From positions 29,905 to 93,904 of IMG/VR virus record IMGVR_UViG_3300025896_000024: a stretch of 64,000 nt of DNA, one strand, 5' to 3'. Origin of the DNA: a virus. Below, in pieces: positions 891 to 48,965 of the stretch. Numbering within the stretch: the stretch's first letter is position 1; each line of letters opens with the position of its first letter. The notes beneath the pieces were generated by a model. The model saw nothing but the letters and a program-made list of their open reading frames with translations. It was not told the DNA's origin and ran no database searches. A program made the translations under genes and the position numbers.

Positions 891-2822
891 TTAAGATTCT
901 TGTGCGATCATTGCCTGGATAACATCTGATGATATCCATCCAGTTGCTTTAAAAAAATCATGAGCTAAGTTCATTACTTTCTTTTCTCCAGCATTAGTAA
1001 CTTCATTGTCTTCACCATCTTCATTGTTATCGTTCCACTCTTCAACTTCGTCTTCTACTGCTCTTGCAACTTTAGATGCTGAAGTTATTTTTGTAGATTT
1101 TTCATGGTAATCTTCCCAATATTTTGCGTTAAACGCTTCGTTAGTGGCAGATTCTCCTAGAGAACTAGTTAACATTCCAACTGCAGCACCATAGTCACCA
1201 TCACATTTTTTAAGGATTCCATCAATTGTATCTCCAGCCTTTGCTTCTTCAAAGTCAGATCCAAATGCTTTTTTCAAAACGGTCATTGCATATTCTTTAA
1301 ATTCATCATCAGATTTAATTTCAGCTTCAGTAACAATAGCTTCTTCAATATATTCTGCAAGATCCGCATCATCCCATCCATATTCATCATCCGCTAAAAC
1401 AGCTTTAAGACTTTTAACATCTCCTGTTAATTTAACTTCAGGATATCCTGATGGCCCATTTTTATTAATTACTTCTAGCGAAACTTTATACTTCTTTAAT
1501 AATTTTGCAAGATTTTTATCTTTAGGATCTACTGCATCTACTTCTACAGTTGCTTCATTTGTTGCAGATTCTTCAGAATTTGCCTCAAATACTAATGTAA
1601 CATCTTTAACATTAAGAGTTTTAACTAAATCTCCTAATTTATCATATAAATCATTCAATTCATCTTCAGTATGGTGTTTATATCCTTTCTTTAGGTTTAT
1701 AGTTGCGCTACCGAATTTAGCCATATAATCATCTTTTCCTTCAGTAATTACAGATTCTTTAATTCCTAATTCTTGTAATTTTCTAACAGGTACACCTTTC
1801 TTTTCTTCATCATCTGGATTAGGATATGCTAATAAATTAGCAGCGATTAATCTTTTATAGATTTCTCCTTTAACTAATTCAAAATCAATAGAGTCGCTTG
1901 AATTTTCCCAAGTATCTGATACGAATTCTGGATCAATCCAACCATAACCTGATTTAATATCTTTAATTAAAGTCTGCATGTCTTTGTCAAATTGCTTTGC
2001 AACCGCTTCATTAATTATAGATTCTTTAATACTACCCTTTAATGTATCTAATTCTGTCTTTAATTTAGGATCTAATTGTCGTTCAATTCCCCAATTAAAT
2101 GATGCCTTAACTAACATGTTTAATGGTAGGGTTGCATTTCTTTTTCCATATGGAGAAGTTCTAATCCAATCAATATAATGTTGTGCTAATTCTTTTGAAA
2201 TTTTTAAACCTTCGGCTGCAGATGTATTACCATCAACAATTTCTTGTAAAGCTTTAGTTGCATTAATCCTAGCCTCATTAACAGATTCATACATTCCTGC
2301 TAATTTGCTCTTCTTAATTTTCATAACAATGAAATCGCAAATTTCATCAAATTCAAACATTTCTTCAGATAAATCATCAAAGATTGTTTTTGCAGAATCA
2401 ATTAAAGATTTCATAGCTTTCATATTATGAAGTCCATCCATTCTATCATATTCACTTCTACTAATTGCTTCATCAATAATCTCATTATCTTCTTTGATGC
2501 CAGTATCTTTAATAGTTACTTTATAAGTTTTACCATTAAATTCAAATTCCTTTTTTCCATCTGCTTTAGCTTTACCTGCAGCGTACACAAATGCATTACC
2601 CTCATTTGTTTCTTTACCTAACAATTTAGATATGAAAGCTGACTGGGAATCTTCATCGATTTCAGATAGATTTGTTAATCCCATCTCATCTAAAATTTCT
2701 TCAATTTTAGATAGTGTCTCTTGTTTCTTTAGACTGTTTTCTTCTCTCAATTTCATTTCATTTTCTTGAGATTTAATCTCTGAAAAACTTTTAAATGATG
2801 AGATTCTATTAACTTCTGCCAT
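891..2822 (-). CDS. Putative internal/prohead-core polyprotein with repeated prohead-protease-like sites
   Basis: 643 residues, acidic and lysine-rich, with no recognised enzymatic domain. Its main feature is a set of short motifs of the form hydrophobic-x-E followed by A or G. They end at residues 118 (EIIDE|A), 183 (ESVNE|A), 272 (ESIINE|A), 361 (ESVITE|G), 423 (ESATNE|A), 499 (AIVTE|A) and 562 (ESATNE|A). This is the cleavage rule of T4 prohead protease gp21. The sites divide the chain into pieces of roughly 62-89 residues after a leading piece of about 118. T4 scaffold and internal proteins are cut in this way, so I infer a head-internal precursor giving several small peptides. The N-terminus (SSFKSFSE) loosely resembles a capsid-targeting peptide. 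A candidate promoter lies 33 bases upstream and a terminator follows. Confidence 0.55.
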   Translation of the reverse strand: MAEVNRISSFKSFSEIKSQENEMKLREENSLKKQETLSKIEEILDEMGLTNLSEIDEDSQSAFISKLLGKETNEGNAFVYAAGKAKADGKKEFEFNGKTYKVTIKDTGIKEDNEIIDEAISRSEYDRMDGLHNMKAMKSLIDSAKTIFDDLSEEMFEFDEICDFIVMKIKKSKLAGMYESVNEARINATKALQEIVDGNTSAAEGLKISKELAQHYIDWIRTSPYGKRNATLPLNMLVKASFNWGIERQLDPKLKTELDTLKGSIKESIINEAVAKQFDKDMQTLIKDIKSGYGWIDPEFVSDTWENSSDSIDFELVKGEIYKRLIAANLLAYPNPDDEEKKGVPVRKLQELGIKESVITEGKDDYMAKFGSATINLKKGYKHHTEDELNDLYDKLGDLVKTLNVKDVTLVFEANSEESATNEATVEVDAVDPKDKNLAKLLKKYKVSLEVINKNGPSGYPEVKLTGDVKSLKAVLADDEYGWDDADLAEYIEEAIVTEAEIKSDDEFKEYAMTVLKKAFGSDFEEAKAGDTIDGILKKCDGDYGAAVGMLTSSLGESATNEAFNAKYWEDYHEKSTKITSASKVARAVEDEVEEWNDNNEDGEDNEVTNAGEKKVMNLAHDFFKATGWISSDVIQAMIAQES

Positions 2823-2854: not shown

Positions 2855-2863
2855 TTATATATC
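2855..2863 (-). promoter_or_regulatory. Candidate late promoter upstream of the polyprotein gene
   Basis: The minus strand reads GATATATAA and runs directly into TATAAATA (2859-2852), which is the T4 late promoter consensus. The motif overlaps the uvsW stop codon and sits about 33 bases before the ATG at 2822. The same GATATATAA word recurs at a similar distance before several other genes here. Confidence 0.5.
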
Positions 2864-4363
2864 TCCTTCAAAATTGACTTTCTTTATAGTGTAGTCGAAT
2901 TTCTCTTGTTTGTAAATTGCCTGCCTTGCTTTACCATGTCGATACAGATAATTATCCCATTCTAGTGTTCTAATATTATCTACAAAGTCAACGATTAACA
3001 CCTTGTCCTTTGATTCATGTTGTCTAAGTCCACGTCCAATTGACTGTCTAATTATCACTTCTGATTTAAAGGATTCTGTAAAAAATATATTGTGAATTTT
3101 CTTAATTGATATACCAGTTGAGAACGTTCCATAACTTGCAACAATAACTATTTCTTCGCCGGCTTCCATTTTCTTTTTATATTCCTCTCTAATATCAGTT
3201 GCAGTTCCACCATCTACATAGAATACTCTTTTATTCGTTTCTTGTCTAAGTTTTTCATAAAGTCTTTGTCCATGTTCTATTCTATGAAAAAGCACTAAAC
3301 TATTCTTTGGTACTCTACCAATTACATTTGAAATAAAATCAAGTCTTGCTGCATTATTGATAACGAAGTTCTGTTCCAATGCAAATACATCTTTGTTCTC
3401 GTATTTATTTTGTGCTAATTCCATCAAAGCTGTTTTTTGTTTGTCAGTTGCATAATCCATTTCGATTACTTTAACTGCACATTTTGCAATGTGTCCTTCG
3501 TTTTGTAAAAAACTTGCTTTAACCTCTGCAATGACAGGACCTGTCTGACTCATTAACGTTAATTTATCTAAAGTTCCATCCTTTGGGATTGTACCTGAAA
3601 GCCCGAATCGATATTTAGCGTTAGTACATTTTTGTAGAATTGTCTTAATACTTGCAGATTTTGCCTTATGAGTTTCATCAACTATTACTGCGTCAAATTG
3701 TTCAAAGTATTCTTTATCCTTTTTAATTAATGATTGGTAAGTACCTATCACTATATTTTTATTAGATTTGATTTTTTGTCCTGCAAAAATTTGTTGGATT
3801 CTTAAGTCAATTCTATTTTTAAAGTTATAGTCGTGGAAATCTTCATGCGCCTGTACTACCAATGAAACGTTAGGTACTATAAATAATATCTTAGATGCTG
3901 TTCCCTTTTCTAACATATATGATATTGTAAGAAAACTTATTAAGGTCTTACCTGCTGATGTTGCAAGCTCTGCAAGACACTTTCTAAATTTTAATATATT
4001 ATAAGCCGCATCTACTTGATAGTCCCTAGGTGTTATCTTAGAACCTTCAAATAGGTCGTATGCCCATTTTTCGAATGTTTCAGCGTTTATGTCTGGATCT
4101 ATTAATCTCTTAATTCCATTAATTTTTAATTCAAAACGATAGTCTTTACATACTCCCATGACATATCGCCATAGACCTGCCGGAATCCATTTATCATCTT
4201 TAATATATGTTACATAACCATCCCACACACCTCTTTTGACTAAAGGATTAAATCTCCAAGAGTCAATTCGTTTTGTTAAAGAAATTCTAATCTGCTCTAA
4301 CTCAAGTTCAGTTGATTCATCAATTCTTAAAAATTGATTATCTTCCGTTAATGTTAAAATCAA
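2855..4363 (-). CDS. uvsW: UvsW-type recombination DNA helicase
   Basis: 502-residue superfamily 2 helicase. Residues 1-100 match the UvsW N-terminal domain (for example WRFNP...WDGY at 36-50). Walker A is TSAGKT at 135-140, the DEAH-type motif II is DETH at 229-232, and motif VI contains QSIGRGLRQ near residue 437. In T4, UvsW drives branch migration and R-loop removal and shifts the phage from origin-dependent to recombination-dependent replication. The start is TTG at 4363-4361: an in-frame TGA stands just upstream, and the nearby ATG at 4370 is out of frame. The gene lies 17 bases after uvsY, the same pairing as in T4. Confidence 0.93.
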   Translation of the reverse strand: MILTLTEDNQFLRIDESTELELEQIRISLTKRIDSWRFNPLVKRGVWDGYVTYIKDDKWIPAGLWRYVMGVCKDYRFELKINGIKRLIDPDINAETFEKWAYDLFEGSKITPRDYQVDAAYNILKFRKCLAELATSAGKTLISFLTISYMLEKGTASKILFIVPNVSLVVQAHEDFHDYNFKNRIDLRIQQIFAGQKIKSNKNIVIGTYQSLIKKDKEYFEQFDAVIVDETHKAKSASIKTILQKCTNAKYRFGLSGTIPKDGTLDKLTLMSQTGPVIAEVKASFLQNEGHIAKCAVKVIEMDYATDKQKTALMELAQNKYENKDVFALEQNFVINNAARLDFISNVIGRVPKNSLVLFHRIEHGQRLYEKLRQETNKRVFYVDGGTATDIREEYKKKMEAGEEIVIVASYGTFSTGISIKKIHNIFFTESFKSEVIIRQSIGRGLRQHESKDKVLIVDFVDNIRTLEWDNYLYRHGKARQAIYKQEKFDYTIKKVNFEGDI

Positions 4364-9032: not shown

Positions 9033-9401
9033 TTATACTTTACTACCAAGTGAAGAACCTAAAGCGGCTCCTACTAATCTTGAAGTTAACATATCATACA
9101 TAATTCCGGAGGTAATTCCAAGAATATTTGCTATAGTTTTACCAATAGTTTTACCAAGTGCAAAACCTGCCAATCCACCAAATATACTTCCTAATACTCC
9201 TTCATTTGTAAGTTCTTCATTAAATGCATGGATATTATAAGTACCATCTGTATTCTTATATGTTGATGCGAACTCTTCAATTGCAGCATCTACTTTAGCT
9301 TCCAATTCTTCAGTCCACTCAGTTTGCAAGGATTCAGTTAATATCGCTAATTCCTTATCTGATATATTTTCCTCTTTAATATAATCTAAAAATGTTTTCA
9401 T
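9033..9401 (-). CDS. Candidate packaged protein releasing a glycine-zipper membrane peptide
   Basis: 122 residues. It starts MKTFLDYIKE, almost the pattern of the T4 capsid-targeting peptide MKTYQEFIAE. A second prohead-protease-like site, EELTNE|G, lies at residue 67. The segment after it is hydrophobic and glycine-patterned (GSIFGGLAGFALGKTIGKT...), like glycine-zipper membrane peptides. I infer an internal head protein that, once cut, frees a membrane-active peptide of about 55 residues. Its ATG overlaps the previous stop by 1 base, so it is co-translated with the neighbouring candidate cargo gene. Confidence 0.5.
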   Translation of the reverse strand: MKTFLDYIKEENISDKELAILTESLQTEWTEELEAKVDAAIEEFASTYKNTDGTYNIHAFNEELTNEGVLGSIFGGLAGFALGKTIGKTIANILGITSGIMYDMLTSRLVGAALGSSLGSKV

Positions 9402-9706
9402 TATTTAAATGCTTTAGTTAATTCGTCAGTTAATTCAGTAGGATCAATTCTAAATGTAAATCCTGCAGCGTCATGTCCAGCTTCAAACCACATACATGTT
9501 GATATTAGTGGAGAACTTTTAGCCATTTTCTTTTCAATAATATCTACAATAGTGTTTTTACCATTAACATGAATCGTATCTAATGTTTTTGAATCGGGTA
9601 TAAATGTTATAGCTAATCCCTTTCTATCTACAATAGTTTGTAATGTAAATGTTAGGTTATCTATATTAACCTTTCCTTCGTTTATATAATCATCAAATGT
9701 TTTCAT
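9401..9706 (-). CDS. Candidate capsid-targeted small protein
   Basis: 101 residues beginning MKTFDDYINE|G, a close match to the T4 capsid-targeting peptide with the expected cut after the glutamate. The rest looks like a small mixed alpha/beta domain (TFTLQTIVDRKGLAITFIP, then WFEAGHDAAGFTFRIDP). It is co-translated with the following glycine-zipper gene (TAATG overlap at 9401). No enzyme family recognised; an internal head protein is the favoured reading. Confidence 0.5.
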   Translation of the reverse strand: MKTFDDYINEGKVNIDNLTFTLQTIVDRKGLAITFIPDSKTLDTIHVNGKNTIVDIIEKKMAKSSPLISTCMWFEAGHDAAGFTFRIDPTELTDELTKAFK

Positions 9707-32880: not shown

Positions 32881-33234
32881 TTATATGTATAGTCCTAATC
32901 CATATCTATTATCAATAGTAATATCGATGTAAACTGCATTCCTATCGGACTGTGTGGTATATGATACTTCAACGCTCACCGGATACTTTGCAGACAGTGG
33001 AATATAACGTGATATTGCATTATTTACTACTCCCATTAACATGTCATCATTATACATGAATGAATACACATAATCTTCTAAGTTTAATCCAAATTCAGGA
33101 TCTCCCATTACCTCTCCCTTATTTGTAAATACTAATGTTTCGATTTGAGTTAACATCATTTGAATTTCCTCATCCGACTGCATTTGGTCATCTCTGTAAT
33201 TAGGATCCCCTAGGGTTTTTATGTATAGTTCCAT
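32881..33234 (-). CDS. gp25: Baseplate wedge protein gp25
   Basis: 117 residues, the size of T4 gp25 (132). It contains the family core TNKGEVMGDPEFGLNLEDYV at about 39-58, the short motif that contacts the sheath initiation platform, and the C-terminal strand pattern VYIDITIDNRYG. gp25 nucleates sheath assembly together with gp6, whose gene follows after 14 bases. Confidence 0.9.
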   Translation of the reverse strand: MELYIKTLGDPNYRDDQMQSDEEIQMMLTQIETLVFTNKGEVMGDPEFGLNLEDYVYSFMYNDDMLMGVVNNAISRYIPLSAKYPVSVEVSYTTQSDRNAVYIDITIDNRYGLGLYI

Positions 33235-33250
33235 AGTATTATATATTTGT

Positions 33251-34081
33251 TTAAGAATGCATCATCCAATCTACACCCTCATCTCCTTTTATTTCTTCAA
33301 TTACTTTATCTAATTCATCTTCACCAAGACCCTTGATCGCATCCGCATTTACTTCAATATTTCCAGGAAGAGAAAACCCAAATATAGATAATTTTTGTCC
33401 TAAAGAAATTTTAATTTTTGCTGCACAATATCTAAAGAAGATTTCATCATCGAAAAGTGCACATTCTGGAATTGTTTCATAAACGTTAAGAATAACATTT
33501 TTCTTTGGAGTTTCTCCTGTAAATCTTAATTCATGCGTTAACTGATTATAGTGATATCCTATTGGATTTTGAATAATTTGTCTGGCAAGGTCAAAGAAAC
33601 TTTGATTAATTACATAGTATTGTAAATTTTCAGCAGCATCAGCCGTTCTAGATCCTCCGCTCATTCCGCTCATTAACATTCTTTCAATAGAAAAATCTCC
33701 TTGCGTAAAGTTGATATCCATTGAACCTCCCCAATTTGCACCAACTTCAAATAATCCATAAACTGAATAGACTTCATTTCCTCCAGTTACTATATCCATT
33801 TTAGGAAGTGTAAAACTTCTTTTATTTTTAAAGTGGTCTGAACTGAATAATTCAACAGGTAAAACCATAAAATTCTCTCTAACCGAATATTCATAATTTT
33901 TATAAAACCATTTCTTAGCCCTTAACACTATATTTTGCACTTCTTTTCTTGGAAGATTCATAGGAATCATGCAAGAACCTGTAATTTCATCAGCTAATTC
34001 GTTAACAAAGTTATTAAAACAATCACTTCCCCATGTAGGATCATTTAATAAATCGTCGTTTCCTATAATTATATTACTCAT
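33251..34081 (-). CDS. Putative structural protein, neck or tail completion
   Basis: 276 residues. The N-terminal half contains NLPRKEVQNIVLRAKKWFYK and VRENFMVLPVELFSS. The middle is glycine-rich (MSGMSGGS). The C-terminus is acidic and helical (LDKVIEEIKGDEGVDW). It directly precedes gp25 in the operon. The pattern reminds me of connector or completion proteins of T4-type phages (gp13/gp14), but no motif is decisive. Confidence 0.4.
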   Translation of the reverse strand: MSNIIIGNDDLLNDPTWGSDCFNNFVNELADEITGSCMIPMNLPRKEVQNIVLRAKKWFYKNYEYSVRENFMVLPVELFSSDHFKNKRSFTLPKMDIVTGGNEVYSVYGLFEVGANWGGSMDINFTQGDFSIERMLMSGMSGGSRTADAAENLQYYVINQSFFDLARQIIQNPIGYHYNQLTHELRFTGETPKKNVILNVYETIPECALFDDEIFFRYCAAKIKISLGQKLSIFGFSLPGNIEVNADAIKGLGEDELDKVIEEIKGDEGVDWMMHS

Positions 34082-35417: not shown

Positions 35418-35426
35418 TTATATATC
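35418..35426 (-). promoter_or_regulatory. Candidate late promoter for the amidoligase gene
   Basis: The minus strand reads GATATATAA, 28 bases before the ATG at 35390. The word and spacing are shared with other late genes in the window. Confidence 0.45.
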
Positions 35427-35437
35427 TTAGTAAAAAA

Positions 35438-36241
35438 CTACACCATAGAATCTCGTTTTGCTTGTAGTTTTTTAAGTTCTTTAGTAGCACCTATCAACCA
35501 CGATTTATTTGAATTTACATTTAAATATTTCCAATGATCTATTCTAGAATTTAAATATCTTTCTTGTTCTTTGTAATAATGCGCCTCATCATTATTATAA
35601 TTTTTAGCAGCATCTCTTTTTATTATTTCTTCCCATGTAGGAGATTCACGCCAATCTTCTTTAGACTTTAAGATTTTTAATATTTCAGCATCCGTTACTT
35701 TAGAATTAACTTCAACCTTTTCTTCAGCAGTTTTGATACGTTGTTCATAGCTATTAATTTCTTTATTAAGTTTTTCAAGCTTAGACATTTTCTTAATTTT
35801 CTCAGTATACTCTTTTGTTATTTCACTAACCCCTGTTTTAGGAATTGTTGTTTTAACAATATATCGATAATGAAGTCTTTGAATATTATGTCCACCTGCG
35901 TAAATAGCTTCAGTATTAAAATTATATGTAATTCCATCTCTTTGAATTTGAGAAGAAATTTCAATATTTCCTTTGGCACTTTTCCTAACATTAAGTGAAA
36001 TTAATGAATCTGATGGCATTGTGTATATCTCAATAGATTTAACCATGTCATATATTAAGTTTAACCTAGCACTTTCTCTATCATACTTGGTAAATTCCTG
36101 TTTAAATGTTTCAACAAACCATTTTTCGGTTGCAGCTAGCATTTCAACAATTGTCGGTTCTAATGAATCTAAAATAATATTAACAATATTATTTTGTTTT
36201 GATTCATTAATAAATTCGTTGTATTTCATTAGTTTACTCAT
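35438..36241 (-). CDS. Candidate capsid-targeted coiled-coil protein
   Basis: 267 residues. The second methionine opens MKYNEFINE|S, a good match to the T4 capsid-targeting peptide with the expected cleavage glutamate, so initiation at 36229 is as plausible as at 36241. The middle is beta-like (SLISLNVRKSAKGNIEISSQ). Residues about 145-250 are highly charged and helical with coiled-coil character. No enzyme motif. It begins a transcription unit after a terminator and leader module. An internal head protein is the inferred role. Confidence 0.5.
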   Translation of the reverse strand: MSKLMKYNEFINESKQNNIVNIILDSLEPTIVEMLAATEKWFVETFKQEFTKYDRESARLNLIYDMVKSIEIYTMPSDSLISLNVRKSAKGNIEISSQIQRDGITYNFNTEAIYAGGHNIQRLHYRYIVKTTIPKTGVSEITKEYTEKIKKMSKLEKLNKEINSYEQRIKTAEEKVEVNSKVTDAEILKILKSKEDWRESPTWEEIIKRDAAKNYNNDEAHYYKEQERYLNSRIDHWKYLNVNSNKSWLIGATKELKKLQAKRDSMV

Positions 36242-45395: not shown

Positions 45396-45404
45396 TTATA
45401 TATC
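45396..45404 (-). promoter_or_regulatory. Candidate late promoter for the central baseplate operon
   Basis: The minus strand reads GATATATAA, 24 bases before the ATG at 45372. It heads the run of tightly packed genes that includes the hub and spike proteins. Confidence 0.45.
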
Positions 45405-48447: not shown

Positions 48448-48924
48448 TTATTCTACATCTTCAGCATCAACTGCCTCTTTAGTTTCTTTACACTCATTTA
48501 TTTTTTTAGTATAAGCTTCTGACATTTTATTCAAGCATGCTTCAAACGCTTCAGTTTGCATATCACCTTTCATTTCAGTAAGCGAGTTAACTGCCATCTT
48601 TGCAACTAACGCAGAATTTTCAGCCATATATGTTTCTATCGTGTGATCGTCGTGTGCATCAGATTCCCATACCTTAGCTTCATCAATAACTTCTTCATAG
48701 CATTTTTCTAGCATTGCATATACTGGAAGTTTTTGCTTATTTGCATCCGGTTCTTTAATTCCAATTGGAGTAACATCTTCGGCTTCTTGAACTTCTTCAG
48801 CTTCTTCTTCGGTTTCTTCTACATCCTTTTCATCAGGTTCTCCAACCTTATTTAATTTAGTTTCTATCTCCTCTGCTCTGTCCATTTCGTTAACAAAGGT
48901 TTCAAATGATTTAATATTTGCCAT
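48448..48924 (-). CDS. Acidic candidate prohead-core or capsid-targeted protein
   Basis: 158 residues, very acidic (VEETEEEAEEVQEAEDV at about 35-51). The N-terminus MANIKSFETFVNE|M fits the capsid-targeting pattern with a cleavable glutamate at residue 13. Further hydrophobic-x-E sites occur (SLTE, MQTEA). Acidic, helical and proteolysed is the profile of T4 core proteins such as gp67/gp68 and the internal proteins. A GATATATAA motif lies 33 bases upstream and a terminator follows. Confidence 0.5.
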   Translation of the reverse strand: MANIKSFETFVNEMDRAEEIETKLNKVGEPDEKDVEETEEEAEEVQEAEDVTPIGIKEPDANKQKLPVYAMLEKCYEEVIDEAKVWESDAHDDHTIETYMAENSALVAKMAVNSLTEMKGDMQTEAFEACLNKMSEAYTKKINECKETKEAVDAEDVE

Positions 48925-48956: not shown

Positions 48957-48965
48957 TTATATATC
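48957..48965 (-). promoter_or_regulatory. Candidate late promoter for the acidic core-like gene
   Basis: The minus strand reads GATATATAA, 33 bases before the ATG at 48924, immediately after the stop of the preceding membrane-protein gene. Confidence 0.45.

Follow-up and report, generated by a model that had tools for sequence, protein, structure and literature searches.

We consider it likely that a 643-aa open reading frame of an uncultured phage encodes an internal-head precursor that uses a single targeting step and that the prohead protease cleaves in trans to give about eight small packaged proteins, which would probably be ejected. The window analyzed here is a stretch of 64,000 nucleotides (bases 29905-93904 of a 93.9-kb IMG/VR virus record), and judged by its genes the source is a large T4-like phage. 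The start of the record holds portal, gp67/68-position, and prohead protease/scaffold genes, while the polyprotein gene itself lies next to a UvsW-type helicase gene (Table 1). The major capsid proteins of close relatives had their best match in a 462-kb uncultured phage (51%), followed by Prevotella Lak megaphages and Tenacibaculum phages, so a Bacteroidota host is likely.

The open reading frame contains seven E↓A/G sites (the arrow marks the putative cut point), after E118, E183, E272, E361, E423, E499, and E562, and splitting at these sites would give pieces of 118, 65, 89, 89, 62, 76, 63, and 81 aa. A sequence-only reading of this DNA had described seven near-identical motifs at these residues. 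The positions held, as did the likeness of six of the motifs, but not that of the site at residue 118, which fits only a looser hydrophobic-x-E↓A pattern; a relative (L207/L002) has HLDE↓A at the equivalent place. With a strict linker motif, defined as E[S/A]x(1-3)[N/T]E↓[A/G], there are six sites in the frame; 20,000 protein shuffles gave 0.087 on average and 3 at most. The whole 93.9-kb record has 10 strict sites, six of them in this frame and three in a second polyprotein outside the window. Several linkers have Thr at P3 (SATNE, SVTNE) instead of I/L/V and are looser than the leaders described below. As the linker and leader sets were collected by pattern, there is some circularity in their P1 and P2 statistics, and a comparison anchored on the modules served as an independent check. 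In that comparison the motifs are well kept in homologues, with P1 Glu and a hydrophobic P3 in 28/28 distinct homologues of module M02, 25/25 of M03, 9/9 of M17, and 7/7 of M10.

Table 1. Features of the window that bear on the putative polyprotein (positions in the window; the arrow marks the putative cut point)
Feature	Position	Strand	Residues or motif	Remarks
Polyprotein gene	891..2822	-	643 aa	ATG start, frame open; architecture M00-[119-183]-M06-M04-M10-M17-M02-M03
Module M03	894..1136	-	aa 563-643	A leader-bearing gene of its own in other phages
Module M02	1137..1325	-	aa 500-562	
Site 7	1137..1154	-	ESATNE↓A after E562	
Module M17	1326..1553	-	aa 424-499	Distant likeness to phrog_5922 (85-position profile)
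Site 6	1326..1343	-	EAIVTE↓A after E499	
Module M10	1554..1739	-	aa 362-423	
Site 5	1554..1571	-	ESATNE↓A after E423	
Module M04	1740..2006	-	aa 273-361	Leader-borne in G005 33152-33769
Site 4	1740..1757	-	ESVITE↓G after E361	
Module M06	2007..2273	-	aa 184-272	
Site 3	2007..2024	-	ESIINE↓A after E272	
Module 119-183	2274..2468	-	aa 119-183	Counterpart in few relatives
Site 2	2274..2291	-	YESVNE↓A after E183	
Module M00	2469..2822	-	aa 1-118	N-terminal; targeting-like aromatic pair F10/F13 in SFKSF; GNAF mini-module from aa 75
Site 1	2469..2486	-	NEIIDE↓A after E118	Weak form
Extra candidate site	2601..2618	-	GKETNE↓GNAF after E74	From sequence; in low-pLDDT segment 69-77; absent from the sequence-only reading
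Putative late promoter	2855..2863	-	GATATATAA	41 nt upstream of polyprotein start; overlaps UvsW stop codon
UvsW-type helicase	2855-4363	-		Same strand as polyprotein gene; followed by primase and gp32-like protein
Separate gene with CTS-like leader	9401..9706	-	MKTFDDYINE↓G	10-aa leader; compare T4 IPIII, MKTYQEFIAE↓A
Separate gene with leader	35438..36241	-	MSKLMKYNEFINE↓S	Cluster M23; also in G001 and G002
Acidic protein	48448..48924	-	MANIKSFETFVNE	Late-type gene, leader-like start; larger G001 homologue and the scaffold protein have a segment in common; likely a further prohead core protein

The predicted structure is consistent with a chain of separate units. AlphaFold2, run on the 643-aa chain with 24 sequences in the alignment, gave a row of small, confidently predicted domains with nine low-confidence stretches between them (mean pLDDT 70, pTM 0.29). 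The seven sites are all no more than 5 aa away from such a stretch, a proximity equalled by 1.9% of circular shifts, and are thus predicted to be at or beside disordered joints, with the proviso that low pLDDT at the joints may partly reflect alignment breaks. Most modules are predicted to be folded domains of about 7-10 kDa. Pfam and PADLOC searches of the window protein gave no match and detected no peptidase domain, a fold search with its model returned nothing significant (none below E 0.4), and these Pfam, PADLOC, and fold searches assigned a recognized function to none of its modules. M17 also matched an 81-aa Erwinia phage gene, though weakly and over a short length (E 0.005).

The N-terminal module, M00, occupies that position in 23 of its 24 occurrences. 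Its FxxF pair (SFKSFSE↓I) has no canonical cut site beside it; SFxxF is present in relatives, one of which, L015, has SFEQYATE↓A. In another relative, L223, M00 and the scaffold half of the protease protein have an acidic segment in common (50% over 58 aa, E 6e-8), a link between M00 and the prohead core; this segment is missing from the M00 of the window. A 31-aa mini-module (EGNAFGDAVRKAKEAGEKEFEFDGKTYKVEE) forms tandem repeats with possible VEE↓G sites in L006:3-1472 and other relatives, and residues 75-105 of the window protein are one diverged copy of it.

Small genes in the same genomes begin with a 13-aa leader, MKHIKLFE[Q/E]F[I/V/L]NE↓[A/S/G], that links the sites to a known processing scheme. 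An alignment of 128 leader proteins had only the 13 leader residues in common, with F10 nearly invariant and E13 invariant, the latter because it was defined by the pattern. Among 144 leaders, F/Y occupies P7 in 141 and P4 in 142, I/L/V occupies P3 in 138, and A/S/G occupies P1' in 136, with Glu at P1 in all 144 as fixed by the search pattern. In the T4 record, IPII and IPIII start with MKTYQEFIAE↓A, and mutagenesis of the T4 leader has shown that residues 4 and 7 govern targeting and residues 8 and 10 processing (PMC9026906). The conserved leader positions P7, P4, P3, and P1 are exactly these targeting and processing residues. The separate leader genes, those at 9401-9706 and 35438-36241 of the window among them, have both the aromatic pair of T4 IPIII positions 4/7 and the hydrophobic-x-E↓A/G/S cut type, while the linkers keep P3, P2, P1, and P1' without the aromatic pair, as would be expected if they are cut sites that lack a targeting role. 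In 25 distinct homologues of M03, a linker precedes the module in 17 and a leader in 4, and in G001 IGESIVNE↓A joins a leader-bearing M03 to a module that the present record carries as a separate leader gene. At the level of sequence, leader and linker are interchangeable before the same module. The 462-kb uncultured phage (LR756500.1) has about a dozen leader genes of the form MKYIxxYxxF[L/I]xE↓A, two of them with leucine-rich repeats, and no linker polyproteins; the leader is therefore more widespread than the polyprotein.

To compare module order, we scanned IMG/VR viral contigs by protein and DNA pattern, together with stretches of several phage genomes, and obtained a sample of 189 non-redundant proteins, each of which had a leader or two or more linkers. 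Splitting these at the sites and clustering the pieces yielded 26 module families with at least three members, and shuffled architectures were seen in 51 non-redundant polyproteins. In G002 the order is M00, M06, M01, M04, M07, M10, M02, M03, with other modules in between; in L002, M17 comes after M02, and the G001 polyprotein ends in M17. In three relatives (L022, L210, and L231) M02 is the last module, and the stop codon sits where the next linker would start. Eight left neighbours were identified for M04 and eleven for M02. In BLAST comparisons with the linkers masked, 33% of homology breakpoints fell within 3 aa of a site, compared with 7.7% for rotated masks (range 5.6-9.9%); as the compared pairs are not independent, this excess should be read as an effect size and not as a p-value. 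Assembly chimeras were considered and ruled out, because identical architectures recur in independent contigs (L003/4/7; L012/13; L015/16/18/19) and all frames are open. Our searches found no named-phage homologue of the window protein, of L069 (1029 aa), or of the second polyprotein type, and no relatives in bacterial genomes.

The sequence-only reading had suggested that small internal peptides were recombined into one precursor and had proposed module order in related phages as a check. The order does differ among phages, the breakpoints fall at the sites, and the pieces also occur as separate genes, all of which support recombination of the pieces; "peptides" is too weak a word for modules most of which are predicted to be folded domains. 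One module provides a particularly precise boundary. M16, which in relatives follows a linker as NE↓GTRSQIGKID..., corresponds to a stand-alone cyanophage protein that begins MGTRSRIG... (139 and 149 aa in the two examined), and Caulobacter phages have a stand-alone M16-type protein that begins MATRSN.... The start of the free M16 gene coincides exactly with the cut point, and removal of its Met would leave the same first residue as cleavage.

The T4-like leader, a gp21-family protease in the genomes, and late-type promoters all support the link between the sites and a prohead protease that had been proposed from the sequence. The prohead protease family phrog_207 was found in all ten genomes first searched, this record included (G000 89-613, E 4e-46, truncated at the record end), and in 5 of 7 further fragments. 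The protease is fused to a scaffold-like domain. In G001:C1:51569-53383 and G002:C1:139642-141564, this scaffold-like half is long and rich in YLAE↓S / HIAE↓S repeats, which suggests that the scaffold may be diced by its own fused protease.

The sequence GATATATAA is a probable late-promoter element of this phage group. It lies 41-45 nt upstream of the polyprotein in four genomes (this one, G001, G002, and G003) and is almost wholly confined to the coding strand, with strand counts of 0/13, 0/19, 1/28, and 11/0 in four genomes. It stands 25-45 nt before many starts and farther upstream of gp23, and the genes that have it include gp23, the protease, tail genes, some leader genes, and the polyprotein. 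The window holds nine matches, each of them on the minus strand, whereas 3.8 would be expected over both strands; examples are at 2855-2863, 35418-35426, 45396-45404, and 48957-48965. As the copy at the polyprotein overlaps the conserved C-terminus of UvsW (GDI-stop), that instance is weak when taken alone. We also considered TATAAATA as a late promoter, but it was not enriched, and GATATATAA was found instead.

Based on these results, we propose that the precursor is probably made late in infection, from a putative GATATATAA promoter, and that an aromatic-x-x-aromatic signal in M00, like that of the T4 capsid-targeting sequence (CTS), carries the chain into the prohead core. There the gp21-type prohead protease would cut in trans after the Glu of each ES-x-x-NE↓A/G linker and release about eight small proteins, most of them of 7-10 kDa, with an N-terminal piece of 13 kDa. 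The freed proteins would remain with the DNA and probably be ejected into the host for takeover or counter-defence. Recombination in frame at the linkers may add, remove, or reorder cassettes or swap them with stand-alone genes, an exchange that is possible because the same linker bounds every module and the same site ends the leaders of single genes.

The protein might instead be a processed core or scaffold protein, the modules of which would be structural pieces that are cut by the prohead protease and mostly lost, rather than effectors. T4 gp22 and gp67 are core proteins that are cut by gp21 at several sites and mostly lost to make room for DNA, much as the putative multi-site cutting of the polyprotein, and T4 gp67 is annotated as a precursor to internal peptides. 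The acidic segment that a relative's M00 shares with the scaffold half of the protease protein also points in this direction, as does a leader of the same kind on the gp67/68-position gene. However, the T4 proteins are structural core proteins and not chains of exchangeable domains with identical linkers, and a scaffold would be expected to be conserved. The modules here are diverse folded domains that are variably present and are exchanged with leader genes, a class that includes enzyme and Tad3 domains, and M16 is a free gene in unrelated cyanophages. We regard a scaffold role as unlikely.

Even less probable is an uncut multidomain protein in which ES-x-x-NE is a flexible spacer and the chain acts whole, for example as a polyvalent injected protein. 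Flexible joints are indeed predicted, and polyvalent proteins are known, some of which, such as the N4 virion RNA polymerase, are packaged unprocessed (PMC5512222). A spacer would need neither an invariant Glu followed by a small residue nor identity with the cut site of T4-type leaders, though, and the modules are also found alone behind such a leader. It is also very improbable that the linkers are chiefly units of recombination at the DNA level or of mobility, with the protein motif as a by-product. Linkers within a gene do share synonymous codons more often than expected (562 observed versus 455 expected of 774 same-residue pairs), but linker DNA still varies at many synonymous sites; what is conserved is therefore the protein motif, and its conservation with diverged DNA is largely seen across independent phages. 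Moreover, the leader has the same P3-P1' residues with a different upstream sequence. A cleaved internal-head precursor remains the reading that we favour.

Judged by the features of its cut sites, the polyprotein appears to be a variation on the internal-head-protein scheme of T4. IPI, IPII, IPIII, and Alt of T4 have a CTS and are cut by gp21, and they share with the present system the spacing of the aromatic pair, the hydrophobic-x-E↓A cut, a gp21-family protease, and diverse cargo behind a conserved leader, some of it directed against host defences (T4 IPI; Tad3 in a relative). T4 has one cargo protein per leader, whereas here at least seven cut sites chain many modules that are shuffled between chains and single genes. 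In the large phages SPN3US and phiKZ, internal head proteins are cut after x-x-E by the prohead protease (gp245/gp175) and their propeptides are cut several times (PMC10052503), but the described cuts strip N-terminal propeptides from single proteins, and no chains of mature products are described. Polyvalent proteins are mosaics of dissimilar domains that are thought to be delivered with the DNA and were likened to polyproteins by the authors who described them (Iyer et al. 2017, PMC5512222), and the window polyprotein is likewise a mosaic of several dissimilar domains. They are thought, however, to be self-processed by an embedded metallopeptidase (PMC5512222), whereas Pfam and PADLOC found neither an embedded peptidase (MPTase) nor another defining polyvalent domain in the window polyprotein, which instead has repeated linkers for putative trans-cleavage. 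The open-access literature describes the T4 CTS, gp21/gp245 processing, and polyvalent proteins, and in it we found no phage polyprotein of exchangeable modules with prohead-protease linkers. We put the chances at about even that this is a true polyprotein strategy of one group of tailed dsDNA phages for injected effectors, in which one targeting signal serves many exchangeable anti-defence or takeover cassettes that the prohead protease releases in trans and the protease site doubles as the recombination joint.

By analogy with T4, the modules of the window protein probably serve as takeover or anti-defence factors that are ejected. T4 IPI is an inhibitor of a restriction system, and the internal proteins of T-even phages have been described as diverse defence proteins with a conserved CTS (PMC3012670). 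In G001, a leader-bearing protein (L056:4513-5292, minus strand) contains a Tad3 domain (type I Thoeris inhibitor, E 8.5e-19), suggesting a head-packaged anti-Thoeris activity. Among the other domains on leader cargo in relatives are NUDIX, polynucleotide kinase, GNAT, ATP-grasp, zeta-toxin-like kinase, and cytidylyltransferase domains. If our reading is correct, the leader/linker signature identifies the proteins that a large, uncultured group of T4-like phages packages, and more than 100 hypothetical proteins or modules become candidate injected counter-defence or takeover factors, one of which is already recognizable as a Thoeris inhibitor. It would also reveal a polyprotein economy in a tailed phage, with many products per targeting signal, and provide a natural design for loading multiple cargoes into heads.

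The second polyprotein, which lies outside the window (G000:C1:24220-27168, minus strand, equivalent to L026:9220-12168), is 982 aa long and has three strict linkers. Its large C-terminal cargo domain, M05, had no Pfam, PHROG, or fold match, and an Alt-like identity, at first suspected, drew no support from AlphaFold and Foldseek, which gave no match. M05 is present in at least 14 related proteins and occurs once alone behind a leader, in G004 (locus L167:2859-3908).
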